A stretch of DNA of 64,000 nt from Bryoerythrophyllum caledonicum (taxonomy: Eukaryota; Streptophyta; Bryopsida; Pottiales; Pottiaceae), in assembly GCA_963971425.1 (NCBI GenBank), contig OZ020517.1:19248904-19312903 (forward strand), given 5' to 3'. Positions 4,347 to 63,540 of this stretch are shown one piece after another. The notes under the pieces were generated by a model, which saw nothing but the letters and a program-made list of their open reading frames with translations, did not search any database and was not told where the DNA came from. The stretch's first letter is position 1; each line of letters opens with the position of its first letter. Position numbers and translations under genes: made by a program.

Positions 4347-4350
4347 TTAA

Positions 4351-5278
4351 CCCCCAAGGTACCATGACAAATTCACACCAAAAACACTTCAAATTTGTTG
4401 GATTCTTGTATAAAGAAGCAAACAAAAACTTTTATTTCTAGTTTTAATCGTAGGATCTCAATGAAGCCTTACTAAGTAACATGGTCACAAATTTTCATAA
4501 ACTTTGACAACACAAGATTGAAAGATTACATTGTAGGAAGTCAAACAAATGGTTCATATTCATCCCTACATTCAATGGATCAGCAAAACTTGACTTCACT
4601 TGGTGTCAATTTTTTGTACGGCACAAGGTCTTTATCCATTACCACTGTATTCAGCATGATGTGAGTTCCTTGTACACCAATTTTTAGAAGTAGAGGAGGG
4701 GTGTAGCATATTCAAAACACTTGTGCAATGAATGGAGGTTCAAAAATTATCAATTCAATTTTTATTTTTGTGTGAACTAAATGTGTTTTAGATTGAGACT
4801 CCAAATGGTTGATAAGAAGGTTTACACCACATATTATTGTGGAAAAAATAAAAGGTAAAAGATATGAAGCTCTCATAGTATTATGTGGAAATGAAGAAAT
4901 TTTTTAGTACCTTGCCCGAAAAGGTGTAACAATGTGTGAAAATGTTTGACTTGAGTTATTATGCTATTTCATATTGCAAAGGAGAACTTTTTGATTACCT
5001 AGGTTTTAAAGGAAATAATATTACTTTCTAATATTGAAAATTTCACATTCAATAGTGTAAGAGCAAAAGTTTTTGGAGATGCCCTACGTGCCTACTCTGC
5101 CCATTTTAAATTCAAAACCCTATCACCTTAAACTCGGAATGTCACATTTGAAAAAAGCCTGTTGTTCTCTCGCTAATATCTTAGTTATGCCCTTCTACAA
5201 TAAAAAATTCCAAAGATAAATGTTAGAAATTGACACCAAAAGAATATGTCCAAACTTTTAAAAAGCCCACTTCTGACC
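4351..5278 (+). mobile_element. piggyBac-like non-autonomous element, right end lost
   Basis: TTAA at 4347-4350 is followed by CCCCCAAGGTACCATGACA, the left terminus shared with the complete copy at 37416-38360. The interior follows that copy closely: the 'caccaaaaacacttc' block, the 'agaagtagaggaggggtgtagcatattcaaaac' region and the 'attgacaccaaaagaa' block near the right end. Homology stops at about 5278, some 20 bp before the expected right terminus, and a TTAA is missing. Non-coding, about 930 bp. Confidence 0.7.
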
Positions 5279-5842
5279 TGCCCTGGTTATCAATCCCAGG
5301 TTATCCCAGCACTTGTCAAGTTCAAGTGAAAGATGAATACGTACTAATATGACTACAACCCTCAATTCAAGCCGACTATATAGGGCAAATTCATTTTAGA
5401 TACAATTCAAGCACATTTGCACAAAAGACACACAAGAATTCAAATCTTTACAACACTAAAAGCGTGGAGAAGGTTGGATGACAGAGTTCTCATCAGTGAA
5501 GGAGTGTGCTATAGCACCTCTTCCAACATCATTTGCAGAATAGATACATACAATTTTCAAGACCTTCAATGCTTCAAAATTTTGGAATAAAAAATCCAAA
5601 AGCATGCTCACTAATCCACAATTGAGTCATAATCGTTTACAATAAAGGTTCGGTCTTCACAGCTTCACATGACTTTGAAGTTGCAGTCTTCTGAGTTACT
5701 CAAAAAAATTGTTTTAGACTTCAAAGCTACTTTAACTACCTTGCGATTGCAGAACCTATATACAAACATACAAAATCAACATCTTCATCTGGAACTACAT
5801 AAACCTCCAACTTCAATTGGGCCGAAGAACCGCCATGAGTTT

Positions 5843-7390
5843 CTAGTGTTTATCACCTAGTGCAATGGCAGGAGTGTTGGCAGCTTGAGGGAGACGATCA
5901 ATTTTGTCTTCTTCAACATTCTTGAGAATGATGGCAAAAACGCTGCACTCTCCACACGCCCGATTGTCCAAGTCACCACCAAATTGGGCCACCCACGTTG
6001 GAGCAAGGTGAATTGGTGATGAAGCAAGGAGAACATCTTTGCATCGCCTGCAATGATAATTCTTGCTTGAAAGTAATTCTGCAACACAAGTGCAATGAAG
6101 AAAGAAACCACAACTGCAGAGGATAGTAGCTTTCGCAATAAATCCAAGGTTACAGTAAGCACACACTTGGATACTAGGCATGCCTAAGGGGGGAATAGAT
6201 TCAGAAGCACAATAGTTAAACACGTGCTTGGGTTGTAGGATAAGATTTTGTCGTGTTGCTTCTCGATGAGCTGCTTCTGCGTCCCACAGTGATGCAAGCG
6301 CCTCATTGTGCTCCCTACGCTGCTCCGACAACGCTGACTTCAGCTCGCACCGCTCTCAACGTGCAACATCCTCTTTTTCGCGATGATCTGTGAGTTTGTC
6401 ATGGAAACTCTTTGCTTCACCGGCTTTAGCAAGATACTCGCCATCAGAGGACGCTTCTCGAGCTAGGCGTCGTGCCTCCTTCAAGGCAGCAGCGTATGCA
6501 ACTTCCCAGCCTTCTACCTCCACATCCTAATCATTTGCTATTGAAAGTGCATCAGCAAATTCCAATTGGCGGGACGCCTTGTCCACATTTGCCGCAGCAA
6601 CCTCCACTCCAACCAAGCGTATTGTCACCATAGCCTTGGCAACGTCAACCTCTTTCTTGTTTCTAGTAGCAGACGGCGTGGCCACATTGCTACTGTTTCC
6701 AGTAGCCAGCGGCGCAACGAGGTGTTTGATGATATTACACAAACCCTCCACTTGGGCGCACGTCCCAATGGGCCCAAGTTTTTGAGGGTTTCGGTTTTTT
6801 TGTCGCAAACGTATCTTCAGGCACGACCGTGCTTCCGCCACCCTGTTAATGGGCTGCTTATGGAGAAATGTAGCATAATATGCTTTGAGAAAACGCAAAG
6901 AGAAATAACCATTATCGGGACGATTACCATACACTCTGTAATACTGCGTACCAAACTGGTGGACTTGCTCCGCACTTGTACAGTTTACAATTTTGTATCG
7001 GCTAGGCTGGCCGCCCGCTCTCCACACCTTTTTGATAGCATTGTCGGTGATGAATGGATACACTTTGGAAACGTCTGCTTAGAGAGGACCCTCGTTGCAC
7101 AGTCCTACGTGCAGCTTGAAGAAGTTATCTCTGTACTCAGCAGCGCGTTCCATCAGCATGGGTGCTGCTGCAACCATACGCACAACAACATTGGCTTGGA
7201 TCCCTGTAAGGTCCATGGCGTCATCAAACTCCCCGGCCCACTTGGGCGCGTCGCGCTCAGGAGAAGATAGATGAGTATCGCTCTCCACGTCGCTTTCGCG
7301 TTGCTCCTCACTAGAGCTGGCCGCGACCCACTTCCGCTTATTTGTTGTCGTTGAGGTTGAACCACGCCAATTCTTCTTTCCTGACGTCAT
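5843..7390 (-). pseudogene. RING-like accessory gene of a transposon-type family (intronless copy), three nonsense codons
   Basis: A single frame of about 516 codons runs from ATG 7390-7388 to 5843. It is broken only by TAA 7081-7079, TAG 6529-6527 and TGA 6358-6356, with no frameshift. Order: Ser/Thr-rich acidic N-terminus; a domain with YYRVYGNRPDNGYFSLRF; a long charged helical stretch (EARRLAREASSDGEYLAKAGEA, then SEQRREHNEALASLWDAEAAHREA); then a cysteine cluster C-x2-C-x11-C-x-C-x4-H-C-x-C with a final C-x2-C (CAYC, CSCGFFLHCTC, CRRC), like a RING or related zinc finger. The gene at 12266-14313 has the same order and the matching YQRVYG..PDNGEF motif, so the two are paralogues. That copy has an intron where this one has none. 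Zinc binding or ubiquitin-ligase activity is inference only. Confidence 0.65.
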
Positions 7391-9660
7391 TGTCCACGGC
7401 ACAAACAAATATTAGTTTGTTATAAGAATAGTTAGATCAGCAGAGGACACGGCACAAATACTATGAACAAAGATGGCAAGACATAGTGTAAATGAAGCAA
7501 CTATAAATTAGTGTGCTGAACCGTTAGGAGACTAGAAGGTGAAACTAAACTTGGACAAAGTTGAAGCAACAATGGCGATGAAGCAATGATGCTGAATCAG
7601 TGACGTGTTAGGCATTGGTGCATTTAGTCACAACAAGCTTGTTGAGAGTCCTGGAAAGGTCTAAGTTTCTAATGATTCTAATTAATTCCAATATGACCCT
7701 TTGAGGACCTCATCAAATCGTATTTCATCAATCATTCTAAGTTCCAAACTTGCTTGTGAGACATTAAAGGTTTGAAGTGTGATAAACAATTAAGGGATGC
7801 TGACTCATTGCTAAGTTACACGCCCGCATCATGAAGTAATTTAAAATGAAGCATGAGAGCCAAGTTTGGGAAGAATGATGAATCAGTGGAACCACCTCTT
7901 GAATAATGAATCACTGGAACTTAGGCCCCTACTTAGGGTAACCCGCCCCATGACTGGCACCATTGAGCAATGTCTATATAACGAAAGCTTAGTATAATAA
8001 TATGTAATTTATTTATCAATGATAGACGATCGAATTGCAATCTCAACCAAAGTGATTCCATAATTTTCCGATGAGAAGTGAATTAGTTATTAATTTTCGA
8101 AGTGAATAAAATATAGAGAATTACCTTCTTTTGAGAATGTAACAATACAACCTTCTTTTCAACAATTGATATCAGAGGATGTCCAATTTTTTGTGAGTTT
8201 TGAGTGTATAGATTGAAAGATGTTTGAAAATTAATCTTCAAAAGAACACTTAGTCATTTAGAGGCTTGTGGATGGTTATGGATTAGTAGTCAATGGTAAG
8301 CCCATAGCCATGGGCCCTTTTTTACTAAGACAAACTGTAATTTGTTATATAATACTAGGGATAACTTGTGACCTCCGGATACAACATTTTTTTGTGTTGA
8401 GTCCCCACCTCCACGTCCCCTAGCCCTTTCCCTTCAATCCATCGTCCCCCCCGTCCTTGTCCCCTTGTAAACGTGTACATGTAAGTGAGCTTGAGCGTGG
8501 TACAACAGGCCGGGTAGGGGGCTTAAATCCGGCACACTACTCTAGGGGCCGCCACATCAACTTATGCAAGTAGCCTACACAAGCCGGGTATACCAAGGCC
8601 CGGTTATTCGAAAGTCATTCAAGGTGCACTTCATTATATTGAGGTTTCCCGCAGTGTCAGCAAACAGTATGGGACAATGCCCCAAGTTGTAAATGGGCAC
8701 CATGCACCTCGCTGATCCTGACCGTTGATCGCGACCGTTGACCGTCAATTGTATCCCACGTGCTGTTGATGAAGCACCCAGATGTTATGACCTTGTTCAT
8801 ATTATGGTTCACATGATACCTGGTACCTCACCGTGAAATACCTACCTTGGCTGCTACAGCAACCATGGTAACATCCAGCTTACTAATTCATGTGTAGTTT
8901 CAAGACCGGTTATACGGATATTCTTAATTATTCTATCAATATACATTAATGGAAATTGTTGAAAATGAAAGTTAACAAAAGTAAAACTCAGCAAAAATGA
9001 AACTTTTTGAAAATAATGCTTTTGAAAGATGAAACTTTTGTGAAATAATAATTTTGGAAAATGAACCTTCAACATCAAAAAAAGCTAGTAAGTGCAAAAG
9101 TATCCTAAGTTTGAAGTAGTGCTTTTGTTAAAAAAGAACAAATCATGTATTATAGATATTACATAAGTTTGACCCTGGCATCACATGGGTATCACTACAC
9201 CACTTTAGTATGCCGCCACTTCTACTCATCTTTGTGAAATTTAACACTAAATATCAACGTGTAAAATTTTATTACCGCCAAAAGCCACTATATGATTGAC
9301 AATTGATGTTGAAGTTCGTATTTATTTTTTGCTACATTAGTAGGGTAATTAACATTTATTTTAGATTGTCCCATCACACACCCCCTCCCTCCCTCTCTCT
9401 TGATTTATTTTTAGATTGTCACTCACTGGTTCTCTCTCTCTCCCCTCATTTCATTTTAGATTGTCCCTCTCCCTCTCATTGATTCCCTCATTGTCACCAT
9501 TGTTCTTAAATTTTTATTTTTTTAATTTTTTCGTTTTTCTTTTTGGGGGGGGTCTAGGGTCTAGGGTCTAGGGTTTAGGGTTTTTGGGGTCCCACTATTT
9601 CTCATTTCTCCCTCTTTGTACTTTTTCCAATTTAATGTTTTGAGTGCCCCTCTTTCCTTC
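7391..9660. other. Gene-free spacer
   Basis: I see no supported gene. 7391-7470 is a plausible upstream region of the minus-strand RING-like gene. 9540-9595 holds a short telomere-like run (TCTAGGG/TTTAGGG units after a G tract). The rest is AT-rich with a few pyrimidine-rich stretches at 9380-9500. Confidence 0.5.
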
Positions 9661-10140
9661 TAGGACACTATTCATCATTTTAGTGTAATGAAAAAGGACA
9701 ATCATTTTATCATTCTTCGTGTGATGTAAAAAAGACACTATTTATCAATTCTAGTGTAATGAAAACAAACAATATTTATCATTCTTCGTGTGATGTAAAA
9801 AAGACACTATTTATCAATTCTAGTGTAATGAAAACAAACAATATTTATCATTCTTCGTGTGATGTAAAAAAGACACTATTTATCAATTCTAGTGTGATGA
9901 AAACAAACAATATTTATCATTCTTAGTGTGATGTAAAAACGACACCATTTATCAATTCTAGTGTAATGAAAACAAACAATATTTATCATTCTTAGTGTGA
10001 TGTAAAAAAGACACCATTTATCAATTCTAGTGTAATGAAAACAAACAATATTTATCATTCTTAGTGTGATGTAAAAATGACACTATTTTTCAATTCTTGT
10101 GTAATAAAAAAGACACTATTCATCATTTTAGTGGAATGAA
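9661..10140 (+). repeat. 69-bp minisatellite, six units
   Basis: The anchor GTGATGTAAAAA occurs at 9721, 9790, 9859, 9928, 9997 and 10066, exactly 69 bp apart. Each unit is itself two diverged ~34-bp halves (TTATCAATTCTAGTGTAATG and TTATCATTCTTCGTGTGATG), and single half-units extend the array at both ends. The short open frame inside it on the minus strand is a by-product of the period being divisible by three. Confidence 0.9.
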
Positions 10141-23210: not shown

Positions 23211-24730
23211 CCTACCTCCTCAGGCCGGTTACCTAATACGTACCACTACACATACTAGAACTAGTCTCTGTATATAAAAGATTACGATCTCTTATCCATC
23301 TTAGCAAAAGTCCAGGATTAGTGTCAAATCTTCCAGAAAGTGATGGGCTCCAGTCATGTTGCCAAGAACAAGGAACTGCAACAGAAGAAACCGCATTGGA
23401 ATCCCAGAAGCAAAACAGAGGAACAGAACTCCAGCACTGACTCATGATGCTATAAAAACACACATGCACCTTGATCAGTCATTCGACGCCTACGCCAGAA
23501 TGTGGAGTTGAAGACGACCACATTCCTCTAGTGACACATGGTATGTAGCACCGTGAATATACGGAGACGCCGAATTCCAAAGTGACGCACCTGCTTTGCC
23601 ATGGCAGGGCAAAAGTAGCTAGAGGCGGGGAAATCCCATGTGTCACAGCAGATTGGTTGTGTGCTTGCGCAGCGCAGACCAATGCATGCAGCCGTGTCAA
23701 TGAATGCATGTCAACCAAGCTGGCAACCAACGGCAGCAAGCAGAAAAAGAGGCCGAACGTACTCTGATGACGTGCTGGGCAGATGCCGTCCAATCCTGCT
23801 GATCTCCTAACTCAAGTCAGTTGACTCGACTGCTAGTTTATCTCGCGATTGGACATGGTAATCTCCGCCATCAGATAGGATTTGCTTGCTTTTTCCACCA
23901 CTGAGTCTCAAAGTTAACTCGCAGTTCAATCCTCTTCACATGGCTATTTTAATTCCCATGCACGCTCAATCTCATGTGACGGATTGCGGAGTCTAGTGGA
24001 GCTCCGAAGGAGAGTTCGAATTTGAGGTGTGTGTAGGGAGGCGGAGGTTGCTGGAACGGGAGCGTCGGCAAGCGTGACTTCATTCTCCTGGCCGTCGAGG
24101 AGAGCTCATGCAGGTGTGTTTGTATGATAAGAGAGCTGTTGCGACAGATATTTGTGAAGAGGGGGAAGGTCCTGTAGGAGGTGTTGTGTGAAGTGAATTG
24201 TAGGAGTCTTTTTGTCAATTCTAGTCATTGTGTCTTCGCATGTGTTTGGATCCGATGTGACAGTTTGCAGTTGCCATCGTCAGGCGTCCTATTTCAACTG
24301 GGGTGGGAGGTTAACAGATATGATGTAACTCTCCGTGTCCACCGTGAGTTGGTGTTTGTAATCCCTGCGGTGCATACTTCCACAGTCCTATTACCATACA
24401 TGCTAGAATCTCTAGCGTATACTCCACGCTTTTTAATCCTGACGGCGTTGTTTCCATCTGTATTCCATCTGAATCAGCGTGTGTAGGTTCCGTTGTGCCC
24501 ATCTCTGCTAGCAAGCGTCGGCCGAGGACTTACCATACAGCAACTTTAACTTCCAGCCGCTTTTACCTACAGCAACTTCTGACGCCTCAGCAAGTGAGCA
24601 CAGCCAGGTACTTATGGTGTGACCAATCATGACCCAAGCAGAGAAAATGTCAAACATGCAGAGTCTGAAACAATTAAGTGAAAGAACAATGCCGTGTGTG
24701 CGCTGTGAAACAACAAGTTTTGTATAAATA
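23211..24730. other. Gene-free spacer
   Basis: Both strands were read and no gene could be supported. Several frames of 60-100 codons overlap on opposite strands and lack family resemblance. 23500-23780 is GC-richer with mixed composition and might contain a leader of an unrecognised transcript. Confidence 0.45.
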
Positions 24731-24943
24731 CTACACTAAACATCGCATTTAGTGTTGCGCCCAGTAAATGACTTGTAAATGCGGTAAGTTTTTACTCTTT
24801 TTACCAAGAGCACAACTCTCTATAGTATTCAAATAAGAGGATCATCATAAACATAGTTGGTAAAAATATTCACTTAAAGTAAAAACTTATAGCATTTACA
24901 CGTCATTTACTAGGCGCAACACTAAATGTGATGTTTAGTGTAG
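24731..24943. mobile_element. Foldback MITE, CTACACTAAA family
   Basis: 213 bp. The ends CTACACTAAACATCGCA... and ...GATGTTTAGTGTAG are inverted repeats, and pairing continues inward for about 65 bp per arm (AGTAAATGACTTGTAAATGC against GCATTTACACGTCATTTACT). A near-complete hairpin is possible. The middle (CATAGTTGGTAAAAATATTC) is shared with the element at 37407-38576. Confidence 0.85.
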
Positions 24944-25261
24944 TTTGGAGATATTAAGTATATGTTGGTACGCTAGTTCCCAAAGGATACTGCAAGCTCA
25001 GGTTAAGTTCAGGTATGGTATTTAGCATAGTGAATTTCGATCATTTGCTGTTTGTTTTTTTGTTTTTTTGTTTTTTTTGTTTTTTGTTTTTTTGTTTTTT
25101 TTTTGTGTAAGATGTGACGTTCGTGTTAGGCATGCTTGTAGGAATCTGTGAATTTGAAGAAGTCATACTTTTAGGATATAGTCTAGTATGGAATTTGCAA
25201 AAGATTGTGAGAGTTTTATATTTGATATATTTTGGGGTTTTTTTTCTCGTTTTTAGTTGCG

Positions 25262-33539: not shown

Positions 33540-33935
33540 TGTTTTAACATAGATCAAACAATTTTGAAGTAGTGAACATAGTTCTTTGTAGAATTGTTTC
33601 AAATATGCTACATCCGTCTTCTACCTCTAAAAACTTGTGTTCAAGCAAGTGACATCATGTAAAATATGATGGTATAAATCTAGAACTTGTGTGATTATAT
33701 AAATATTTGGCACAAGTGAAGTCAAAGTCTGTTTGATCTCTAGTACCTTTTTAATTACTTCAAATAGTATAATATACCAATTAGTGCGGTCAATTTTTGT
33801 GAGCATGTAATTTTATTAGCTTAGATTAATACCATATTGTAAAAAAATGGACAAAAAATTGTTTGTTTCCATTCCAACTCTCTACATAAGATTAGGCCAT
33901 TTCAAAGTGTTTTTGGTGTGAAATTGTTAAGGAAT
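33540..33935 (-). mobile_element. Truncated piggyBac-like element copy (inverted)
   Basis: The 'caaatatgctacatccgtcttctacctctaaaaac' and 'tttcaaagtgtttttggtgtgaaattgttaagg' blocks match, in reverse, the left half of the 37416-38360 element. The far end is absent. Confidence 0.6.
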
Positions 33936-34515
33936 TTTAGAGGATTGAGAAAAATATTGTATTAAACACGCAATTAAGCAATTATGCACTTGGCCATTTA
34001 AAAGTGCACTTGGGTACAACGACGGCCATTGCAAACAAAAGTGGCAAAATTGAAAAAAAAAATGTTTTTCAAAGAAAAAACGTTGAGCTTTTGCAACAAT
34101 ATTATGTACAATCATGGTTGTTAATATTGGAAGCAATTTTTTGGCATTTTCAACTAATTTTTGGTGGCCCCCCGTTAATACTAGATAAATGTGTATTTAA
34201 TATAGTTTTACAATATTTCAAAGATAGATTTGAAGGATTGTAGTATACAAACAGGCGTAATCCCAAAAAAACATACTTTATGCAAGGGTTGGAAGTTGAT
34301 TAAAAGATATTCTACGTGGTACATAATGCATACAATGGTGGAAACTAAATATAGATGCTTCTACAAATGGACTTAGCACCAATAGTAAAAACACCTTTAC
34401 TCTATAGGATTAATGATATAACGTCTAACATCACCCTTAGAATATACTACTCTTACACATACACTATATATCAATTACCATACACAACTAGTATACTCTC
34501 ATAAAGGCACACTAT

Positions 34516-34779: not shown

Positions 34780-34924
34780 TATTGAAAAAATCTGAACATT
34801 ATGGCTGCACGTTAGTCAAAATACATGTACTAATTGTTAACCTTCAAAGCACCATTCATCTGATAAAATATATGTTTCTAAACACATATATAAAAAACTT
34901 TTAAAACCAAGTAAACTGAACTCT

Positions 34925-35036
34925 CGTAATTGACTCAGCCTAGGGAAGAAAATGAACCATGTTGTCTATTACAAAAACTTTAATCCTTCAATCCGTATTG
35001 TCAAATCTTTTGAAAGCTTCTGAGTATGTTACTAAA
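34925..35036 (-). mobile_element. piggyBac-like fragment (inverted) interrupted at its internal TTAA
   Basis: 'gggaagaaaatgaacca', 'caatccgtattgtcaaa' and 'gagtatgttac' follow the reverse complement of the 37416-38360 element up to its internal TTAA site, where the next copy (starting CCCTTGAAG at 35037) begins. The other half was not found. Confidence 0.5.
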
Positions 35037-36605
35037 CCCTTGAAGAAACAAGGCATTTTCACAACAAAATACTTCACAATTGTTCATTCTAGTAAAATGA
35101 CTACTAAAGAAAAACATAATTTTTGACACATCTAATTATATGACTTCAATTCATACTTATTAGCCATTAAAGGACCAAGTGTCCGGAATTGACAATTTGA
35201 AAGATCAGCCAGACTCCTATGGCGTCAATTTCTAACATTTTTCTATTAAACATGTACTGTAGATGGGCATTACTAACACCTTAATGGGAGATGAAATTTT
35301 TCTCCTATCCAATTTTCATGACAAAATTCTAGGCTTTTCAGTTTTATTTGGCAAAATCGGGCACGTCGGGCACCTGAAAAAACATTTATTAGGATATTCT
35401 ATTGAAAGTGAGAATTTTAATACTAGCAAGTAATATTGTTTCCTTTCATATTGTACTAAAACTTATTATCTTTAGTGAAAAATAGCATATTAGCCTAAGT
35501 CAAACATTCTCACACATGGTAACACATTGTCGGGAGAGGTCCCAAAAAACTTCTTCCTTTGCTCATAAAACTTAGAGGTCTTTGTATTTTTTTGCCCTTA
35601 TTTATTCCACATCAATATGTGGTGTGAACTTTCCTATTGACCATTTGGATTGTCAATCTAAAATATCTTAAGTTCACAAAAAAATAAAACGTTAATTGAG
35701 AATTTTTGAACCTCGACTTCTTGCATAGTTGTTTTGAATATGCTACTAAACTCTTCTACATCTAAAAATTCGTGTATAAGGAACTAACATCATGTTTAAT
35801 ACGATGGTATTGGATTTAGATATTGTGTAGTGCAATAATTTGATACCAAGTGAAGTCAAAGTCTATTGATTCGGTAAACGCAGGAAAGAAAATGAACCAT
35901 TTGCTTGACTTCAAATACCATAATTTTCTGATTGGTGCGGTCATACTTTATAAAAAAAAATTGAATATGTAATTTACCACGTCTTCATTTAGATCGTACG
36001 GTAAAAAAAAGAGATAAACAATTTTTATTTCCTTCTTTATACATTGCACTAGAATCAAACAGTTTGAAGTGTTTTTGATGTGAAACTGTCACAATACCTT
36101 AGGAGTTAAGCACGTCCTCACAAATTTTCGTAAATTTTCACCGCACGGATTGAAAGATTATAGTGTTCAAAGTACAGAATACATAATGTTAAAGTACATT
36201 ACCATCCTATTAATTTTGATGTTATTTCTTTTTACACGAATTTTAAGAGGTAGACAAAGGGTGTAGCATAGTCAAAACAGTTGTACAAGGAGTGGAGATT
36301 CAAAATTTACCATCCTATTGTGCTTTATTTTTTGATGACCTCATCATGTTTTAATATGAGAATTCAAATGTTCAAAAAGAAGGTTTACACCACATCATTT
36401 TATAGAGAAAATAAAATGAAAATTATATGAAGATCTCTAAGCTTTATGTGGAAAGGAAGAAGTTTAGTTTGTACCTTGCCTAACAATGTGTGACCATGTG
36501 TATGTGGAATTGACTTAGGTTAATGTAGAAAATTTCACTAAAGACAACAAACGTATTTTATTGATACGAAAACAAATAATATTACTTACTATTATTGACA
36601 CCATT
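35037..36605 (+). mobile_element. piggyBac-like copy split by a nested copy
   Basis: The left part, 35037-35159, carries the 'tacttcacaattgttcattctag' head of the family. The rest resumes at 36110 ('cctcacaaattttcgtaaattttcaccgcacggattgaaag') and runs to about 36605. The break falls at the internal TTAA that precedes 'gtaatat..cacaaaatttc' in other copies. The right terminus is not intact. Confidence 0.7.
35164..36105 (-). mobile_element. piggyBac-like element nested in another copy
   Basis: Starts CCATTAAAGGACCAAGTGTCC and ends ...GTCACAATACCTTAGGAG, the family termini in reverse orientation. Flanks are TTAG (35160-35163, one change from TTAA) and TTAA (36106-36109). 942 bp, non-coding. Confidence 0.75.
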
Positions 36606-37406: not shown

Positions 37407-38576
37407 CTACATTAACCCCTAAGGTACCAAGACAGTTTTACACCAAAAACACTTCAAAATTAATGGATTCTAATGCAATGAATAAAGAAGGTAACAAAAA
37501 CTTTGATTTTTAGTTCTGACCGTAGGATCTCAATAAAGGCTTATTAAGTAATACATGTACAAAATTTCATAAACTTTGACTGCACGGATTAAAAGATTAT
37601 AGTGTTTGAAGTCAACCAAATGGTTCATTTTCTTCCCTGCGTTTAGTGGATCAGCAGACTTTGACTTCAGTTGGTGTCAAAAAATTTCACTACACAAGGT
37701 CTAAATCTATTACCATCTTGTTAAGCATGATGTTAGCTCCTTACACACCAATTTTTAGAGGTAGAGACGGGGTGTAGCATATTCAAAACAAGTGTGCAAG
37801 GAGTGGAGGCTCAAAATTTGTTAATTCAAACTTTAATTATTTTTGAACTTAATATGTTTTTGATTAATAATCCGAATGGTCGATAAGAAGGTTTACATTA
37901 CATACTGTTGTGGAAAAAATAAAAAGTGAAAAATATGAAGATATCTAGGTTTTATGTGGAAAAGAAGAAGTTTTTTTGATACCTTGCCCGACAATGAGTG
38001 ACAATGCATGAAAATGTTTGACTTGGGTTGGTATGCTATTTTTCACTAAAGACAAGAACTTTTTTTTGACAACATGAAGGGAAGTAATATTACTTGCCAG
38101 TATTGAAAATCTCACTTTCAATAGAGTGTCCTATCAAAAGTTTTTGGAGGTGCCCGAGGTGCCCGCCCTCCCCATTTAAAATTCAAAACCCTATAACTTT
38201 TTCATCAAATGTCCAATTTTGGAAATAATTGTTTTTCCACTGATCTCTTGGTAATGTCTTTCTATAGTAAAAATTTTAAAGTGGAATGTTGGAAATTGAC
38301 ACCATAGGAACCTGACCGGACTTTCAAAAAGCCCTTTTTGGACACTTGGTCCTTTAGGGGTTAAAGATGATATTTAGTGTAACCACACTAATGTTTTTGG
38401 ATAAGTAATAACATTTTTCTTTAGAAGAAGATTTTTACCGAGGGCACGCTTATCAATACTATTTAAAGAGAGTTATCATTGTTAACATAGTTGGTAAAAA
38501 TATTCGTCAAAATTAAACACTTATAGCACTTTTAAACAAATTAGTGTGGTTAACACTAAATATCATCTTTAGTGTA
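37407..38576. mobile_element. CTACACTAAA-family MITE interrupted by a piggyBac-like element
   Basis: The left tip CTACA-TTAA (37407-37415) is separated from AGATGATATTTAGTGT (38365 on) by the inserted element. Rejoining at TTAA restores a terminal repeat matching the right end ATATCATCTTTAGTGTA (38560-38576). The interior shares CATAGTTGGTAAAAATATTC with the 24731-24943 copy. MITE length without insert is about 220 bp. Confidence 0.8.
37416..38360 (+). mobile_element. Complete non-autonomous piggyBac-like element
   Basis: 945 bp. The left end CCCCTAAGGTACCAAG and right end CTTGGTCCTTTAGGGG are inverted (14 of 16 matches). Both flanks are TTAA (37412-37415 and 38361-38364). piggyBac elements are known for TTAA duplications and CCC..GGG ends. 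No transposase; internally AT-rich with no conserved frame. This is the reference copy for the family in this window. Confidence 0.85.
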
Positions 38577-39900: not shown

Positions 39901-40099
39901 TCGTAGGACTACCCAACGGTGCAATGGATTGATACCCGCATTTTGAAATCCTAATCCGAAACCCTAAAATGATACCCGAAGTTCATATTGTGGTTGATAA
40001 CCGGGTAGTGGTACCCAGGAAGTCATACCCTGCTGGTGATACACTTGTTATTGATACCCAATGTACATTGGTCCATGAATTATGTTGAGAATATCTCAT

Positions 40100-40480
40100 C
40101 CAAAAATCGTAAAAAATGCTTGTTTTTGTGCAATTAGCAAGGAAGAAAGAGTAAAGTTTTTTTTGTGGTTCCAACCGTAGGATCTCAATAATGACTTATT
40201 CAGTAATATGCTCACAAAATTTCATAAAGTTTAACCGGTCAGATTGAGAGATTATAATGTTTGAAGTAGAGAAAAGGCTCATTTTCTTCCCTACGTTTTC
40301 TGGATCAGCAGACTTTAACTTCAATTGGTGTCTAATTTTTGCACTATAAAAGGTTTCAAATAATTACCATAATGTTAAGCACGCTGTTAATCCCATGCGT
40401 ACCAATTCTTAGAGGTAGAAAAAGAGTGTAGCACATTCAAAAACATTGTGCAATGAGTGGAGGTTCAAAAATTCTCAATT
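40100..40480 (+). mobile_element. Truncated piggyBac-like element copy
   Basis: 'ccgtaggatctcaataatgacttattcagtaatatgctcacaaaatttcataaag' and 'ggatcagcagactttaacttcaattggtgtc' match the left half of the 37416-38360 element. Both ends are missing. Confidence 0.65.
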
Positions 40481-40499
40481 CACGTTCGGTGGGTGGTAT

Positions 40500-42497: not shown

Positions 42498-43175
42498 CTT
42501 CTTCTTCTTCTTCTTCTTCTTCTTCTTCTTCTTCTTCTTCTTCTTCTTCTTCTTCTTCTTCTTCTTCTTCTTCTTCTTCTTCTTCTTCTTCTTCTTCTTC
42601 TTCTTCTTCTTCTTCTTCTTCTTCTTCTTCTTCTTCTTCTTCTTCTTCTTCTTCTTCTTCTTCTTCTTCTTCTTCTTCTTCTTCTTCTTCTTCTTCTTCT
42701 TCTTCTTCTTCTTCTTCTTCTTCTTCTTCTTCTTCTTCTTCTTCTTCTTCTTCTTCTTCTTCTTCTTCTTCTTCTTCTTCTTCTTCTTCTTCTTCTTCTT
42801 CTTCTTCTTCTTCTTCTTCTTCTTCTTCTTCTTCTTCTTCTTCTTCTTCTTCTTCTTCTTCTTCTTCTTCTTCTTCTTCTTCTTCTTCTTCTTCTTCTTC
42901 TTCTTCTTCTTCTTCTTCTTCTTCTTCTTCTTCTTCTTCTTCTTCTTCTTCTTCTTCTTCTTCTTCTTCTTCTTCTTCTTCTTCTTCTTCTTCTTCTTCT
43001 TCTTCTTCTTCTTCTTCTTCTTCTTCTTCTTCTTCTTCTTCTTCTTCTTCTTCTTCTTCTTCTTCTTCTTCTTCTTCTTCTTCTTCTTCTTCTTCTTCTT
43101 CTTCTTCTTCTTCTTCTTCTTCTTCTTCTTCTTCTTCTTCTTCTTCTTCTTCTTCTTCTTCTTCTTCTTCTTCTT

Positions 43176-43205
<30 letters not shown>
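42498..43205 (+). repeat. Perfect (CTT)236 trinucleotide tract
   Basis: 708 bp of uninterrupted CTT (GAA on the minus strand), with no variant unit seen. The long Leu, Ser, Arg and Lys runs predicted in its frames are artefacts of the repeat. Homopurine-homopyrimidine mirror tracts of this kind can form triplex DNA (established for GAA/TTC). Confidence 0.95.
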
Positions 43206-46359: not shown

Positions 46360-47421
46360 CCTCTATTGAAGGATCAAGTGTCAAAAATGGGCTTTTTGAA
46401 AGTTCCTATCTTGTCAATTTCTAACATTCCTTTTTGAAATTTTTACTGTAGAAGGGCATTAGTAAAACCTCGGTGGGAGAACAGTTTTTTTTTTTTTCTA
46501 AGTCCAACATTTAATGAAAAAGTTATAGGGTTTTGAATTTAAACGGGACACGTCGGGTACCTCCAAAAACTTTTGCAAGAACATTTCACTATTGAATGTG
46601 AGATTTTCAATACTAGCAAGTAATATTATTTCCATTTATATTTTCAAAAAAGAGTTCTTGTCTTTAGTTAAAAAAAAATAGCATATAGGGCCAAGTGCAT
46701 TGATTGCCAAACATTTATTGGAGCATAAAAAAGGGATATGAACTTCGTCATGCTTTCTTTCTTTCCGTTTTTAAATCTCATACAGTCTAGCACCATATTC
46801 CTCCTGGCTTGCCTCTTTGGAAAGAGCTTTCAAGAAAACTCTATTGTCACTCATTGTTAGGCAAGGTACCTAAAAAACTCCTTCCTTTCGACATCAAACT
46901 CAGATATCTTTGTAATTTTTACTTTTTATTTTTTCCACAACAATGTGCAGTGTAATATCTTGTTGGCCATTCAGATTATCAATCTAAAGCATAATTAAGT
47001 TTACATGAATTGGCAATTACTGAACCTCTACTCCTTGCAAAGTTGTCTTAAATATGCTACACCCCTCCTCTACCTCTAAAATTGGTGTATAAGGTACTAC
47101 TAACATCATGCTCAGTACAATGGTAATGAATTTAGACCTTGTGTAGTGCAAACATTTGATACAAAGTGAAGTCAAAGTTTGTTGATCCATTCAACGTAGG
47201 GAAGAGAATGAACCATTTGCTTGACCTCAAACACTATAATATTTTGATATATGCAATCAAAGTTTATGGAATTTTGTGAGTATGTTACTTAATAAGTCTT
47301 ATCTGAGATCCTACGGTCAAAACTAGATATAAAAGCTTTTGTTTCCTTCTCTATTAATTGAACTAGGATCCAACAATTTTGAAGTGTTTTTTTGTGTGAA
47401 ATTGTCATAATACCTTACAGG
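46360..47421 (-). mobile_element. piggyBac-like element (inverted)
   Basis: Left flank TTGA (46356-46359, one change from TTAA), then CTCTATTGAAGGATCAAGTGTC. It ends GTCATAATACCTTACAGG followed by TTAA (47422-47425). The interior matches the 37416-38360 element in reverse. About 1.06 kb, non-coding. Confidence 0.75.
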
Positions 47422-47561
47422 TTAAAAAAGAACTTATGCTATGAGAAACAAGATGCTTAGAGGAATTTTGGTTTCCAAAGGAGACTAGTGTGAATAAGGT
47501 GCCTTTTCATTCCACCCTGAACTATGCTTACAATGGTATTTTTGGTAAAGTAAATACACTA

Positions 47562-52775: not shown

Positions 52776-55700
52776 ATGGCTCAGATGGCGGCGAATTCTT
52801 TGGGCTACACGCCGCTGACTGGCGCCAGGAGCTTGTTGTTGAAGTCGTCCGTCGATGCGGAGAGGTTGGGGTCTCTCTCGCGGTTTCGGACGCCAAAGCT
52901 AGCTGCTCCGCTTTTCGTTCGCAATGCTGGGACGATGCGATGGAGCAGCCTTGGTCGAATTTCGCGAGCAGAGTATTCCAACGGTGCGGCAAGGGCTGAC
53001 GGCGGAGCTCCGCGAGAGCCCATTAGAACGTTAATTCTGGACAATTACGACAGCTATACTTACAATCTTTTCCAGCTTCTCTCGGTCATCAACGGAGGTT
53101 TGTTTCACCCCAATTGTTATGTAGTAGGGTGCCAGCCGTTGAATTGGGCAGGAGAACCGCAGCGGTAGTTGCTCGGAAAGGCGTTCTCACTCGAGGATTA
53201 TGATATAGTCTGCTCTTGAGAGGCAGCATTCCAGATCTTACGCAGGAGTGAGAGGTTTTTGCTTTTTCGTACGTTGAGGAGCCAGCGACCGCGTGCGAGG
53301 CTTTTTTTTTCACTGATGCTCTACTCTTATGGCAATTAGGGGTTTAAGATCTGCTTTTTAGGGTTTAGGGTTAGAGTCGAAGTTTAATTTTGTTGTTTGA
53401 CGAGTGCATTCGGGTGAAACAGTAATTGGTAGTCACAAGGCGTTTCTTGTGGTTGAATGGAAACAGCTGTTCCGGTGGTGCTGAAGAACGATGAGATAAC
53501 ATTCGAGCAACTGCGGACACTGCTGTATGAAGAGCGAGCGTTTCACAATGTTGTTATTTCACCGGGTCCAGGCTCACCTACACGTGCTGAAGATATTGGT
53601 ATGAACCACTTTTGCTGCTCGCCTCTTATCAGATACACTGTTGTAGCCAGGTGATTCCAGGGAAGAGTCACGATCCTGTGTGGCTGGTTTCGATGAAAAT
53701 CAATGTAAATTGGTGCTCGATCGGTTAGCATATTAGGGTTTTAGTTTGAGATCGGAATACTGGATCTTGACTCCAACTTACATTTTTATTCATTGCTATT
53801 TGCTTCTGATCCAGGTATAAGTATGCGGCTGCTTAAGGAATGCCCAGATATACCAATATTAGGAGTTTGTTTGGGCCATCAGGTTCAAAATCCTTACACT
53901 CTTACTAATGATTGGGTTTATATATATTAAATGACGGTGCATCAGTCAGTTTGAAGGCAAATTTTAACGCCTGACATATTGGTTGGTTTCGCTGGGTTTT
54001 AGGCCCTGGGAAGTTGTCATGGTGCGAAGGTTGTGCACGCTCCTGAACCTGTTCACGGCCGTTTAAGGTGAAGTCTTCAATTTCTATCGTCGATCTCAAT
54101 GTATCTCCACTTTCTTCTCGAATAGATGTTCTTACAAACGTGGGAGAGTTGCATCAGGTAGATTCTGCGTCGGTTCTTTTCAACGGTACATCTTTGTCGA
54201 GTGACGAGAGAGGTTTATGAGATTCTTGTTCATCTCAAAAGCTTGTTACCTCGCTGATAACTTGTGGTTTTTGGGATATTGGCAGTGAAGTTGAACACAA
54301 TGGCCATCCACTTTTCAACGACATTCCATCTGGAGCTGGCTCCGGATTTAAGGTCGTGACATTCAATAAGTCCTAGTCCCTCCTTGCTTAATAAGGAGAC
54401 TTCATTTTTAGTCTCAATTGCGTCTGGATGGAATTTAACTCACTCCTATCTTGACTGTCTTTTGCAATTATGGCACTTTCGAGAACTTTTTCTGCTGCTC
54501 ATCTTATGACATGAACGACAAGCTTAAAGTCTGATTTTCTGTTGCTTTCTGATGTATCTGCCTGGTCATGCTGACCTTGAGTATTTGTACCGTTTAAAGA
54601 AGAGGTATGGGCTTCTAAATGGGTACGTCTTCCTGTAGGTTGTGCGCTACCACTCTTTAGTGATTGATGCAGCTACGCTTCCGGAGGATCTGATTCCTAC
54701 AGCTTGGACAATGCTTTCAGATGCCCCTGGGGTCGATTGTGTAAATGGATCCTCGTCTGGCTTTTCTGATCAGGGATATTGGATGACGGGACGCCCAGCT
54801 CTTAGTACTGGTAGAAGCCAGGAGAGAGTGCTCATGGGTATGTCTCATAGAAATCGACCACATCACGGAGTTCAGGTGCATTTTCATTACACTTTTAACT
54901 ACATATCTGATAGTTCGAGAGTTTTGAGGATACTTTCCGATTCGGATGTATTCCAATACTTCTCATCACCGCTTTTTTCTATATCATACATCATGTGTAC
55001 TCTATTTGTGCCTCTAATAATTGGTTCGTGTTGACTGCAGTTTCATCCAGAGAGTGTTGCCACAGCTTACGGAAAGCAAATCCTGGAGAACTTTCGCAGG
55101 ATCACTCAGGAGCATTGGCAGAGACATGAATGGCAACCTGGGAGTAAAGTAATAATATTTGCCTACAAACAACTTCTGTGCCTTTTCATAGTAAACATAT
55201 GTGTGATGTGATGCTATTATCACTTTGGCAATCTGCATTAGGACTCGAACAAAGAACTCTTGTCATAACTTAACGCCATCTGCTTGTACGACCCTGGAAA
55301 CTTTATTCTAAGAAATGCCTGTGGCTTTGTCATATTATCACTGCTCGGGACTCACCTATTCACGTTGTTTGTTTTCCTGACAGAGTTCTCAAGCTTTTCG
55401 AATTCCTGCGTTGCCAATCAATCAGGGGAATCCCTTCAACTTACCGGATGAATCACGAATCTCTGATTACGCAATGAATTCTAGCGGTGATTCAAGCTCT
55501 ATTCAATTGAGAGTTTGTTGGGAGAAGCTACCAGGTTATGCCTCAACGGCTGGAGGCTCTGAAAACATTTTTTGTGATTTGTTCGGGAAGGAAGCAGCTC
55601 AAGATACGTTCTGGCTTGACAGTTCAACAAGAGAACAGGTATGTGGTTAATTCATGTGGAGTCTTTCAGACATATTTACTGGGTTGCTGGGAAAGTTGTA

Positions 55701-58269
55701 GGCATGGTGTAGGTCATGAAACACTTCCAGAAGTTATATTTTCTTCACAATGGGCTTGTTAGACAAAGTGACTAGTTTTACGGTCATCGTTATATTCATT
55801 TTTAACGGGGAAAAATTCCTATATTTTAATCAGGGTGGAGCGCGCTTTTCTTACATGGGAGGTAGAGGAGGTGTCTTGTGGAGGCGCTTGACGTACTCAC
55901 TGTAAGAGTTTCTATTAGGATTGTTTTAAAAAAATTAATTTTGATTTTGAATGCACATGGCTAATAGAAGGTTTGAACTCAGCTGTATCTCTGATATCAT
56001 GAGTGTGCACAGCGGGGGTGCAGGGGCAAGTGGGGTCATTCAAATTGAAGATGCGTCTGGCAACAAAGAAGAACATTTCCTTGAAGACGGCTTTCTTAAC
56101 TATCTTAACAAGGTATACGCCATTTTAGATAATTAAAAATGTGCAGAGTTTGATGTTTTCAGGGTTGTTCAGGATGGTTGTAGGATGGGGACATCTTTGG
56201 TACCTCTCATCTCCATCTTCCTCCTTGCAAGTAGTTTGCTCAAGCTGGTGTTTATCAAGTGCCTGACTCAACGCATATGTAATTTTAATAAAATAAAAAA
56301 AGGATAATGAGCTGTAACTAAAATACGGGGTTTGCAGGAGATGGAGTTGGCCTCCTGTGCACAGGCTGATTATGAGGAACTCCCCTTCGACTTTTGTGGG
56401 GGCTTTGTTGGATATTTAGGGTAAGTTACCTTTCTATTTATGTAGTCCATCTTTCTATATTGGTCATGTTCTTAATCTCGAATATTTTACTGATGATTCA
56501 CTGTGGCGCTGAATATATATTTCCAGTTTTTGCGAATCACCTTAAGACTCAATTTAGTTGGAACGTAATCAAGTTGCAAACATCTTTCTCCGCAGATACG
56601 AGTTGAAAGTGGAGTGTGGAGTTCGATCAAATCGGCACAAGTCTAGGCTGCCTGATGCGGCGCTGTTTTTGGCGGACAGAGCAGTGGTGGTTGATCATAG
56701 CAATGATGATGTCTATGTATTGGCCCTATTCAAGCAAACGACATCCATACGAAATGCAAGCACTGCTGTTGATAGGATGGGCTCCAGCAATGGGAGTTTT
56801 TTGAAACAAGGCCAGAATGGTGCAGCGAATGGTTGGAGTCCTAAGATGAATGGCTCTTCGAACGGGAATGGCTGCGCAAATAGGACTGGAAGTTTGCCCC
56901 CTGTATTGAATCATGAGAAAAGTGCAGCAGAAGAATGGGTTGCGACAACCCTGAAGAAGATCTCCAGCTTGGGAAAGAACGGTGTACATTTAGCATCTGA
57001 GAGGAGGCAGTCATCTCAATTCTCCTCTGTTATTGATACTGGGAAGGAGAAGTTTACTCCTCCTTTCACGTTAGAAAAGTCTAGGACGACGTATATCAAT
57101 GACGTCAACGAATGCAAGCGTTATATTAATGACGGGGAGAGCTATGAAGTTTGCTTGACAACACAGCTTCGGCGAGAATCACATGACCTTGACACTCTGG
57201 GGCTCTACCTTACTCTTCGGAAGATGAACCCTGCCCCATATGCGTCGTGGCTTCACTTTGGTGAACACGGCCCTCAAGTGTGCTGTTCTTCTCCTGAGCG
57301 TTTCCTGCGCCTCGATCGTGGGGGAACTTTGGAAGCGAAACCCATCAAGGGAACTCTTCCTCGTGGGACCTCACCAGCTGACGACGAAAGACTCCGCTTT
57401 GAGCTCCAACACAGGTATGAATATCTCATGTTTCATTTATATCATCTTTGCTTTTTATCATCTCACTTTCTTTTTGTTACGGCCAATGTCCAGCGAAAGA
57501 TGTTGAGCCATGTCCGTTGGACTAGCTACTTGATGTTGAGACTAAAACGTTGATAGGTGACGAATCCCTTGCCTTTGCCTAAATTTTAACCAGGCTGTAT
57601 GATATGAAAAGCGACCATAACCGTTGAAAGAACTCACATGAATCTTACCGACAGCTGCCACTCGCAAACTGTTTTATTTCCGCGACTTTCATTAACTTAC
57701 TGCGGGTACGAGTTCGCTTGTTTTCCAGTGAGAAGGACTTTGCAGAGAACTTGATGATTGTGGATCTGTTGCGGAATGACCTTGGGCGAGTGTCAGTACC
57801 GGGTTCTGTACATGTGCCGAGCCTCATGGCGGTGGAGTCCTACACCACAGTTCACACTCTTGTAAGTACCGTAAGGGGCAAGAAGAGGGACGATGTGACG
57901 CCCATCGAATGTATCAAGGCAGCGTTTCCAGGAGGTTCGATGACTGGGGCACCCAAGCTGCGGACCATGGAGATTTTAGATGGAATAGAAAGCGGAGCGC
58001 GAGGGATATACTCGGGTACTGTGGGATTCTTCTCATTCAATTCTGCTTTCGATTTGAATATAGTCATTAGAACATTGGTTTTCTCCGACGGGGAGGTGTG
58101 CATTGGCGCTGGAGGTGCAGTCACTGCACTCTCGGACCCCGAAGGAGAGTACGAAGAAATGTTGTTGAAAACCAGAGCCCCCATTCGGGCCATGGCCAAA
58201 TTTGAAGGAGATTATACTACCTCCAACCGTCAAGGGAATAGAGGTGCAGCTGCTGCCCTACCCAATTGA
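52776..58269 (+). CDS. ADCS: Aminodeoxychorismate synthase (fused PabA-PabB), plastid-type, 13 exons
   Basis: Exons: 52776-53097, 53467-53598, 53815-53882, 54003-54067, 54286-54352, 54639-54875, 55041-55148, 55384-55638, 55834-55901, 55968-56112, 56338-56420, 56596-57414, 57729-58269; 969 residues. About 85 Ser/Arg/Ala-rich residues look like a plastid transit peptide. The glutamine amidotransferase half follows ([33 protein letters not shown] with catalytic Cys near 171, GMSHRN, FHPES near 298). The chorismate-binding half has [24 protein letters not shown] near 768 (PIKGT lysine typical of PabB rather than anthranilate synthase), LLRNDLGRV and [11 protein letters not shown] near 862. It converts chorismate plus glutamine to 4-amino-4-deoxychorismate, the step before p-aminobenzoate in folate synthesis. 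A Ser/Asn/Gly-rich insert (about 560-605) is unusual. No lesions. Confidence 0.93.
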
Positions 58270-60375: not shown

Positions 60376-61006
60376 CTGCCACCATAGCTCAACCAAGGTC
60401 AAACTCACAACCAAAAAACAACAAACAACAAACAGCCACACTCATGATAATACCTTCACCAACAAAAGGTGGGAGTTTTGGCCAGGGAGTTGGACAGAAT
60501 GCACACAGACAGATGGGATTTTGCGACATACCTTGTGAGCTGCAAGCAAAAAGGGGAGGTGTGTGTGCAGTTGGAATGAGGAGGGAGAGCGAGGTGGATA
60601 AGCTGGTTGGTGGAACTGCGTCTTCTGTGAGAGCTTTTTACTTATGAGTGCGGCGCTAATCTTTCTTAGTGTTTGGTTTCTTTAACCTCTGGGCACTTGA
60701 GTCAGAAGGCAGTCAGGCGTGTTTTTTCCAGTGTGGACCAGGGCTTTTATTTATTTCTGGCGTCAAACTGACGAAAGAGCATTGCTGTTTGCTAATAGTT
60801 TGGAGGGATGTTCTGTCAGTGGCCAGTTGAGAATGTGGCCAAAAAAATTTAATATTTAAAAAAACAAAAAAAATAAAAAAACGTCGGTGTGGAAACTTAT
60901 GGAGAGAGTGGGGCTTTTGAGTTGAGGAGTTTCGTTTGAAGACTGTCACCGATGGGTTCCAATTCTTTGATGGAAATCAACAACTGGAAGGAGGGAATAT
61001 GTTTAA

Positions 61007-61847
61007 CCCCTAAAGTCGAAATCGACCAGAATGTGGTCGATCTGACTCTGGTCAGGCTCTCAGTTACTAAATTTAGATCGTATGAAGTTATTACCGTTGC
61101 AGATTGTAGAGTTTTCCCAGACCTTTAAAATGACACCATTCATGCTTCAAAATTCCTCATACTTTAGGAGATATTCACGGTCAAAGTTTGAAAACACTGT
61201 TAGGGCATGCTGAAATCTGCCCAGAACTGCGGTATATGCTCAATTATTCTCAAAATCTGCCCAAAATCAATTAGATCGCAGTAACTTCAAAAATTCACCA
61301 AAAATTGAGATTTTATTTTTTTTCAAATTTTGTTTTTCGTACATGTAAAAGACGTAGTAAAGCATGATCTCACCGTTTGGATTTTCAATCGGATAATTTT
61401 TTACATGCCTTTTTAATTGTTGAAAATGGGCATTTGTATTTGTATTTCAGCATACCTCCATGTGAAAAATGAAGCATTTCTTTAGGTTTTATAGGTCCTA
61501 TGAGGGTAAAAATTATATGGACATATTCCTTACTCACATAGAAACAAGAATTTGAAGAGCCTCATGTCAAATTTCCTTTCAAAATTGGTTTTTTTGGCCC
61601 CCAAAACATTAGTTTTCCATTCTATAGCAAGGAAAAAATCTTTTTTTTCAACTTTGAACATTATGATCTCCCAAATGGAGAGGAATTTGAATCTAAGATT
61701 CGGTATGCATGTACATGTACAAGTTAGGTACTAGATCTTACGGTTACATACTCGAAAATTTGTCAAAAGTTAAAAATTTTCACCTTGCATTGAAAGAGGG
61801 CAGTTTTGAGGGTTTTTGGCAGTTTTGAGGGCTTTCGACTTTAGGGG
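61007..61847. mobile_element. piggyBac-like element, second subfamily
   Basis: 841 bp with perfect 15-bp inverted ends CCCCTAAAGTCGAAA and TTTCGACTTTAGGGG, flanked by TTAA at 61003-61006 and 61848-61851. The interior differs from the 37416 family and carries no transposase. Confidence 0.85.
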
Positions 61848-61851
61848 TTAA

Positions 61852-62829
61852 CGGTCCCCTGAAGGACCATGACAGTTTTTTTAATTTCTTTTTGGCACAC
61901 ACTAGTTGTTATATTGGCAACTTGGGGCCGTCTCCTCAAGTTAGAGAAGGTTTTTATAGTCATGGATCAAACGCGCAACCTCATGTCTTTGGGTATATCA
62001 CACTATCACCTGGGTAGTTTAGGGTCATCTCGGATCGGGACTGAGACATTTTAGCACCCAAACTCACTGAAAACTACCAGTTTCAATGCAATCAACACAA
62101 ACTACAAATACACACGGTTTTTACATATTTAACTGTAGGTTTTTGTACTGCGATTGTACAAATGTGTGTGGTAAAGTTTTTGTTCGGCTTGACCACACGG
62201 ATTGAAAGATATTAGCCTTTGAAGTGAGACATAAATTCTTCTTGAGGTCATACTAAACACCTTCAACAAACTTTGACCACCTTCTATGGCAAATTTTTGC
62301 ACTACAAATCGTGAAGTTCTAATTCTAACTTAAAAAGGATCATGTTCGGCACATGTAAACCAAATTTTAGGAGTAGAAGAGGGGTAGAATATGTCCTTAA
62401 AAATCCTGCAATGCAACTATGTGCTGAGAATCAACAATACACTAACAAGTTTTGCATGTATCATTTCCTTCTCATATTTTGAAATTCAAAAATCCGTATG
62501 GTAGATGCAAAGCTTTCCATTCCCTTTTCAAGAGGATTTAAAATTAAAAAAATTGACAAAAACTCAAATGTCTATTGAATTTTAAATTAGTTAAAGTTTT
62601 GCTTCATGACACACTATCCCGCTACACTATTTATATATATTATTGAAAAATGTTTGTAACTTTTGAACCATGAGTCCAATTCCTACAAAAAAAATTATGT
62701 CAATGGAAAGCTATTGAAAAGTTCCACATTTGATTAAAATATGCCTTAAAAAATCATGACGAGATTTGAGATTGAGGGATTCAATTGAAACTCAAAGTAT
62801 TCTTCAAGGAGACTCTGATCTTTTAAGGG
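61852..62829 (+). mobile_element. piggyBac-like element adjoining the previous one
   Basis: Begins right after the shared TTAA (61848-61851) with CGGTCCCCTGAAGGACCATGACAG, the family head. It ends ...GATCTTTTAAGGG with TTAT in place of TTAA (62830-62833). The interior 'ttgaccacacggattgaaagatattag' matches the 37416 family. 978 bp, non-coding. Confidence 0.65.
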
Positions 62830-62859
62830 TTATAGTAGTATCTATTCTTGTGGATTTAA

Positions 62860-63540
62860 CCCTTTAAGGACAAGAGGCCTACACGTGGTCACTTTTGGAA
62901 TAATTTGCAAATTTGGTGGACCGGTCCATAATCACGAATGCTATCTTGTGAGCGGTGAGCAGTGAGCGTCAAGCGGTGAGCAATGAATTTACGTCAATTT
63001 TTTGCATGATTTTTATTATGGAATAAAAAGGATTGCCTATAGCCGTGGCTATAAGCAAACTATTTTTACAAATGCAAGAAAAAATTGTAGAAGGACAAGA
63101 AAATGCGGACCTCGAGTTGCATTATATTTTTTTAAATGTATAAGTGGCGCCTATGGCGGTCGCTTACATTTAGATTATTTGGACAAATTTTAAAATAGAA
63201 TGAAGAAGGACTAGAGTTGAGGACGTAGGTTCCCAATGACCTTCTACGAAGAGCTGTAGTTGTCAGATGGAGGAGGAAAATATAATTCAATAATGGAAAA
63301 TACCGTTTGTAGATTTACGGATTAGGGATTGTAAACGTCAAAACAAGACAATTACTTTAAGCATTTATAAACTTATTTCAGTATTCATAATGCAGTAATT
63401 CTATATCTATTGTCAAAATTAAGATATTATCAATAATTTATTCCATCCATCAACAATAAATTAAGGAATGTTGTGAGGCAATTGCAACTACAAATCAAAA
63501 TCCTCATGAAAATAACCAACACAAAGAAACAAAATGGAGG
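62860..63540. other. Gene-free region, possible further TTAA element start
   Basis: TTAA (62856-62859) then CCCTTTAAGGACAAGAGGCC resembles another element's left end, but no matching right end was found. 62950-62985 has GTGAGCGGTGAGCAGTGAGCG-like short repeats. No gene supported. Confidence 0.35.

Follow-up and report, generated by a model that had tools for sequence, protein, structure and literature searches.

Element A and its insertion site

The window, that is, the whole stretch of 64,000 nucleotides that was analysed, carries on its forward strand a non-coding, piggyBac-type element of 945 bp (37416..38360), here called element A. Its ends read CCCCTAAGGTACCAAG...CTTGGTCCTTTAGGGG. The termini are thus CCCC...GGGG, each directly abutted by a TTAA copy, at 37412..37415 on the left and 38361..38364 on the right. 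The terminal inverted repeat (TIR; 37416-37431 and 38345-38360) is 16 bp long with 14/16 positions matching and begins CCCCTAA; the arms taken together with the TTAA copies (37412-37431 / 38345-38364) are 90% complementary. The first-pass annotation gave CCCCTAAAGG as the end sequence, which holds for the right end but not for the left, which reads CCCCTAAGGT. In the consensus of 40 copies the longest stop-free stretch has 61 codons, so element A is non-autonomous.

Element A was inserted into an older, palindromic CTACACTAAA MITE, which it interrupts at the tip. The tip CTACA is found to the left (37407..37411, forward strand) and the remainder to the right (38365..38576, forward strand), and the two halves of this host MITE pair at 71% over 230 alignment columns. 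When 37416-38364 is removed, the flanks read CTACA-TTAA-AGATGATATTTAGTGT and pair with the right end of the host MITE, with one mismatch at the tip (CACTAAAG at the right end, CATTAAAG at the insertion site). Both ends of a second host-MITE copy in the window (24730-24944) read CTACACTAAA; the mismatch, a C to T change, accounts for a TTAA site being present in the interrupted copy. Both the placement of the element between two TTAA copies inside the left terminal repeat of a MITE and the restoration of the tip on joining the flanks at one TTAA, as first proposed, are borne out, the latter with that one mismatch.

Other copies and features in the window

BLAST and profile searches found copies B, C, D and F of the family in the window, together with fragments E, G, H and I. 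Copy B (35164..36105, reverse strand) is 76% identical to A, with TTAA at 36106-36109; its right flank (35160-35163) reads CTAA, or TTAG on the forward strand, one change from TTAA. Copy C (4351..5277, forward strand; 78% to A) has TTAA at 4347-4350 and has lost its right tip. Copy D (46368..47421, reverse strand) has TTAA at 47422-47425, TCAA as right flank and some 130-160 extra bp in mid-element. All four readable left tips, those of A to D, have TTAA, and the right flanks of the old copies B, C and D are degraded. Copy F (35037..36600, forward strand) is split by B into 35037-35159 and 36110-36600. B sits where the consensus reads TTATTAAGT, where it has one TTAA, and the halves of F, joined over one site copy, match the consensus at 71% in one block and at 73% in another. 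This is a second nested insertion, independent of that of A in the host MITE. The remaining members are E (40098..40484, forward strand), G (33584..33942, reverse strand) and H (34898..35036, reverse strand). I, a distant relative with the tip GGTCCCCTGAAGGACCATGACAG, occupies approximately 61852..62860 on the forward strand (profile match 62037-62559).

A second TTAA MITE family, with the TIR CCCCTAAAGTCGAAA, has a window copy of 841 bp at 61007..61847, between TTAA at 61003-61006 and at 61848-61851. This copy is 95.7% identical over 830 bp to one nested in a transposase-bearing element. With its target sites (61003-61851) it abuts the left end of distant relative I.

The window also holds a perfect (CTT)236 array (42498-43205; 708 bp, 100%), unusually long and pure, in which either strand carries long frames free of stops, and a 69-bp tandem array (9664-10133) of 6.8 copies with 94% matches. 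At 54639-58266, a weak GATase trace, below the cut-off, is followed by chorismate_bind exons. The candidate name anthranilate synthase was dropped, as the weak trace and the sequence fit aminodeoxychorismate synthase more, and the gene looks like the latter.

Dof (PF02701) is a green-plant family. Its genome-wide search returned 58 matches, with 11 strong (E 6e-19 or lower), which agrees with the plant host first suggested; a flowering plant would usually have more. Among the weaker matches, Dof-like zinc-ribbons occur several per frame on contigs C15 and C7, for example three in one C15 frame of 667 residues, which would be unusual for ordinary Dof genes.

Copies of the family across the genome

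The genome searched comprises 437 Mb in 894 contigs, and the window corresponds to C4:19248904-19312903 in it. Element A belongs to a repeat family. Scoring the best 40 of 6653 first-look candidates gave 41 matches, of which 40 are full length, and the true copy number is higher. Being the copies with the best scores, these 40 are young and similar to one another and do not sample the family at random.

TTAA stands on both sides of 35 of the 40. The other flank pairs, each seen once, are TTAG/TTAG, TTAA/TTAG, TTAA/TAAA, ATAA/TTAA and one with a one-base insert; CTAA on both sides was found in none of the 40 best-scoring full-length copies. When sets with shared flanks are counted once (L001-L003; L029, L033, L037 and L038), 35 distinct sites remain. 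TTAA/TTAA is found at 31 of these and TTAA on at least one side at 34, the remaining site having TTAG on both. The background of TTAA in the flanks is 0.0075 per position, so chance is not a sensible explanation for the double flanking of 35/40 copies or 31/35 sites. The first T of the site is conserved in 39/40 left and 40/40 right flanks. Beyond the TTAA there is no comparable conservation, the commonest base in any column reaching at most 20/40. Two loci, L018 and L024, have copies lying in or beside the end of another member, as close neighbours with a common TTAA.

At ordinary TTAA sites, duplications of 2, 3 and 4 bp look identical. L005 departs from this. It has TTAG on both sides, and a paralogous empty site in L026, aligned at 83% over 441 columns, has a single TTAG. 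The fourth base is therefore part of the duplication; by the symmetry of TTAA, the first base is probably duplicated as well. Weaker paralogous empty copies were found for L011 (TCAA), L025 (TTGA) and L029 (TTGA, with TGGG in a second relative). At L010 the empty copy has an indel, and at L012 and L013 the site has gaps or altered bases. L024 is a copy abutting another and not an empty site. These paralogous empty sites attest unfilled sites and are not taken as evidence of excision.

Transposition with duplication of TTAA, proposed from the single locus, is supported by the 35/40 copies and by the duplicated TTAG of L005. The first-pass annotation had also named copies without TTAA flanks, or ends not conserved elsewhere, as observations that would speak against it; the 40 best-scoring full-length copies carry TTAA-type flanks, with ends conserved at other loci. 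The empty sites it suggested looking for are present in paralogous form, for L005 in L026 and for B in the family consensus, at the place where B entered copy F.

Copies lie 1.3-3.5% from the consensus, with a mean pairwise difference of 3.3%. The surroundings of A recur on C4, C8 and C14 (L001, L002 and L003), with 96% identity across 3.9 kb and 98% across 3.05 kb, and the three copies of A differ by 1.06-1.69%. This stretch is a segmental or larger duplication, placed after the insertion of A because all three loci hold A. The order would then be the host MITE, A within it, and duplication of the segment to the two other chromosomes, C8 and C14. The earlier statement that the nested insertion dates the family stands for this relative order, but not for anything beyond it.

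Transposase elements in the same genome

A profile search of the genome with PF13843 gave at least 120 matches, all above the curated cut-off, after scoring 116 of 305 candidates; a few loci give two pieces. Of these 120 matches, 47 have no stop inside. The same search gave zero matches in 14 control genomes, whose identity is not stated.

Extension of two transposase loci yielded complete elements: on C3 lies X, of 6547 bp, and on C9 lies Y, of 6468 bp. Each is bordered by TTAA copies and has TIRs starting with CCCCTAAA. Their mutual homology ends at the element borders, so their flanks differ. In each the coding frame is unbroken, counting from the first Met 793 residues in X and 785 in Y. 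The X protein (P0001) matches PF13843 at 1.9e-81 and, in the PDB, Trichoplusia ni (T. ni) piggyBac (6x67, 1.3e-28) and piggyBat (9c0f, 1.4e-24); an NKG2-D chain also matched marginally over a short length (0.00098), which was taken as chance. Its three Asp motifs, DE, DN and GVDxxDQ, are in line with piggyBac, and the aligned Asp residues are what we take to be the catalytic residues of piggyBac. X and Y each also contain an intact second-family MITE of 879 bp with the TIR CCCCTAAAGTCGAAA. This MITE, with TTAA on both sides, lies at 6679-7565 of both L051 and L052, within the transposase elements of 6.5 kb.

The transposases are diverse. Frames with the motifs were obtained from 15 of the 18 loci compared, and these fall into 9 groups with less than 70% identity. 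Movement or duplication of some elements was recent, since L055 agrees with L056 at 99.8% over 5.5 kb. CCCCTAA or CCCTTAA stands beside TTAA at one likely end in 7 of 13 loci examined (L048, L049, L055, L056, L058, L059 and L062). The tip of L061 is CCCCTCAA, and among the same 13 no tip was recognised in L050, L057 and L060. L041 and L042 have such a tip 3' of the transposase, which may belong to a nested element.

Relationship between element A and the transposase elements

Element A aligns with both ends of the X/Y lineage from the outermost base. Its left 341 bp match the left 345 bp of the element in 226/381 columns (z 31.9), and its last 232 bp match the right-hand 235 bp, down to the terminal base, in 162/248 (z 5.2 under loose scoring). 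Under strict scoring of the terminal 200 bp, z is 8.7 for left against left and 18.6 for right against right; in the swapped controls it is -0.7 for the left of the MITE against the right of the element, and 2.4 for the converse pairing. Reversed controls under loose scoring gave z 10.6 for the 5' part and 2.8 for the 3' part; the former is read as a probable further inserted remnant.

The ends of X and Y are only 59-65% alike to those of A. None of the 18 transposase loci read (10 + 8) holds an element with the full TIR of A; the end of the L055/L056 element shares CCCCTAAAGG-CCA with it, at a z of only 2.4. The autonomous copy anticipated by the first-pass annotation was therefore found in part. 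Elements with a DDD piggyBac transposase and CCCCTAAA ends do exist, but they are cousins of the A family and lack its full TIR.

We consider that A is a non-autonomous, MITE-like piggyBac element mobilised into TTAA by the transposase of related elements (probability roughly 0.93). Its alignment with both ends of X and Y argues that it is a non-autonomous derivative of their lineage, and the PF13843 elements with related ends and TTAA flanks in the same genome uphold the superfamily first assigned. On this model, a C-to-T change in the older MITE tip would have created the TTAA site. A piggyBac transposase encoded by full-length relatives at other places in the genome would bind the ends of A, cut it out and join it into TTAA, which would be duplicated on either side. 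Such a transposase probably moved A, by cut-and-paste chemistry. Judging from the aligned ends, the 945-bp form may be a longer element that lost its coding middle and kept about 341 bp on the left and about 232 bp on the right.

Alternative explanations

The origin of the body leaves the most room for another account, in which it came from the 3' non-coding part of X/Y-like elements and not from simple internal deletion. Positions 22-886 of the MITE are indeed 95% identical to 5314-6172 of X and Y, positions ~22-857 are 95.5% identical to sequence beside the transposase in 5/10 loci (L043-L047), and in L042 positions 16-677 are so placed at 80%. However, the block in X and Y has no MITE tips, and X matches MITE 778-945 once more, at its terminus. 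Since both tips are lost and the block repeats sequence already at the right end of the element, we read it as a putative MITE inserted in the element and then decayed, a nested remnant that would not reflect descent. Older window copies, 76-79% identical to A, already have the body and the tips. We regard this account as unlikely. That no transposition took place at the locus, the flanks and repeats coming from duplication or misassembly, is the least probable of all. Sets with common flanks (L001-L003, and likewise L029, L033, L037 and L038) do each represent one insertion, yet the other sites have distinct flanks, which refute it: TTAA borders 34/35 flank-distinct sites on one side or both, TTAG borders the remaining one on both, and one copy has a clean empty site.

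A MITE of the PIF/Harbinger (3-bp TAA/TTA) or Tc1/mariner (2-bp TA) type that prefers TTAA, with A/T counted as part of its ends, appears very improbable. The host-MITE case by itself gives the same empty site for 2-, 3- and 4-bp readings, and L005 alone leaves some room for a duplication of 3 bp, TAG, preceded by a conserved T. The TTAG duplicated at L005 and empty in L026 fits neither the 3-bp duplication of PIF/Harbinger nor the TA duplication of Tc1/mariner (Stowaway). Furthermore, the first T is conserved in nearly every flank, and the ends of A are common to piggyBac elements. Sola3 elements, too, duplicate TTAA, with a Sola transposase. Both PIF/Harbinger and Tc1/mariner are common plant MITE types according to the available text of one review (PMC10004981). 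Slimmer still is the chance of a Kolobok-type element, from another TTAA-specific superfamily. Kolobok likewise duplicates TTAA, so TTAA alone is no proof of piggyBac, but its termini are given as 5'-RR..YY-3', against CCCC..GGGG in A, and the plants named as having it, in the part of the source available, are only green and red algae (PMC9587614). The transposase elements with ends related to A are of PF13843, which also goes against Kolobok.

Comparison with known systems

In the available part of a 2022 review on land plants, the TIR superfamilies named are six (Tc1-Mariner, hAT, Sola, MuDR, PIF-Harbinger and CACTA), piggyBac not being among them (PMC9033089). In their accessible text, two other reviews list PiggyBac by name for plants (PMC10794571; PMC10004981), the abstract of an animal survey states that piggyBac was isolated from plants (PMC10813416), and a fern annotation reports 1230 PiggyBac copies (PMC6890710). 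Since these four sources name it, piggyBac is not to be called unknown in plants. It is little described there, as the first-pass annotation put it, and no paper devoted to it in plants was among the matches listed from licence-limited literature. The families described here are new within a known superfamily, and come from a host group with few descriptions of piggyBac; they do not amount to a new mechanism. We give even odds to piggyBac being a major, long-resident and recently active superfamily in this green-plant lineage, in view of at least 9 transposase groups, near-identical recent copies and swarms of TTAA MITEs nested within one another and within the transposase-bearing elements. 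Such copies may be missed, or assigned to other groups, by standard plant pipelines. The genome offers a worked plant case that brings together a swarm of non-autonomous copies, elements with a transposase, an empty site and a variant of the target site, and its families could help in studying the entry of piggyBac into plants or its survival there.

With T. ni piggyBac and piggyBat, the elements described here share the TTAA duplication, a short TIR starting with CCC and a PF13843 DDD transposase with related ends in the same genome, although this transposase belongs to a cousin family of A. They differ in the green-plant host, in the long frame (785-793 aa) with a low-complexity N-terminal part, and in a TIR that reads CCCCTAA rather than CC[C/T]T. 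The latter is given as the terminal motif of the superfamily, with TIRs of 12-19 bp, in the portion of the coral CMITE paper available (PMC2872659). The 16-bp TIR of A lies within this range, and its fourth base is C and not T, as in CMITE family III, which also starts with CCCC (PMC2872659). The coral CMITEs are, according to the same text, also short, flanked by TTAA and bounded by TIRs starting with CCC, and new elements arose among them by insertion of one copy near another; they differ in length (about 100 bp, against 945 bp here) and in host, which here is a plant (PMC2872659). Finally, the survey of animal piggyBac families covers animals, its abstract mentioning plants in passing, and the text available describes TIRs that begin with CCC, as here, and rare TTAG, TAAA, CTAA and TCAA sites, each of which also borders copies in this genome (PMC10813416).
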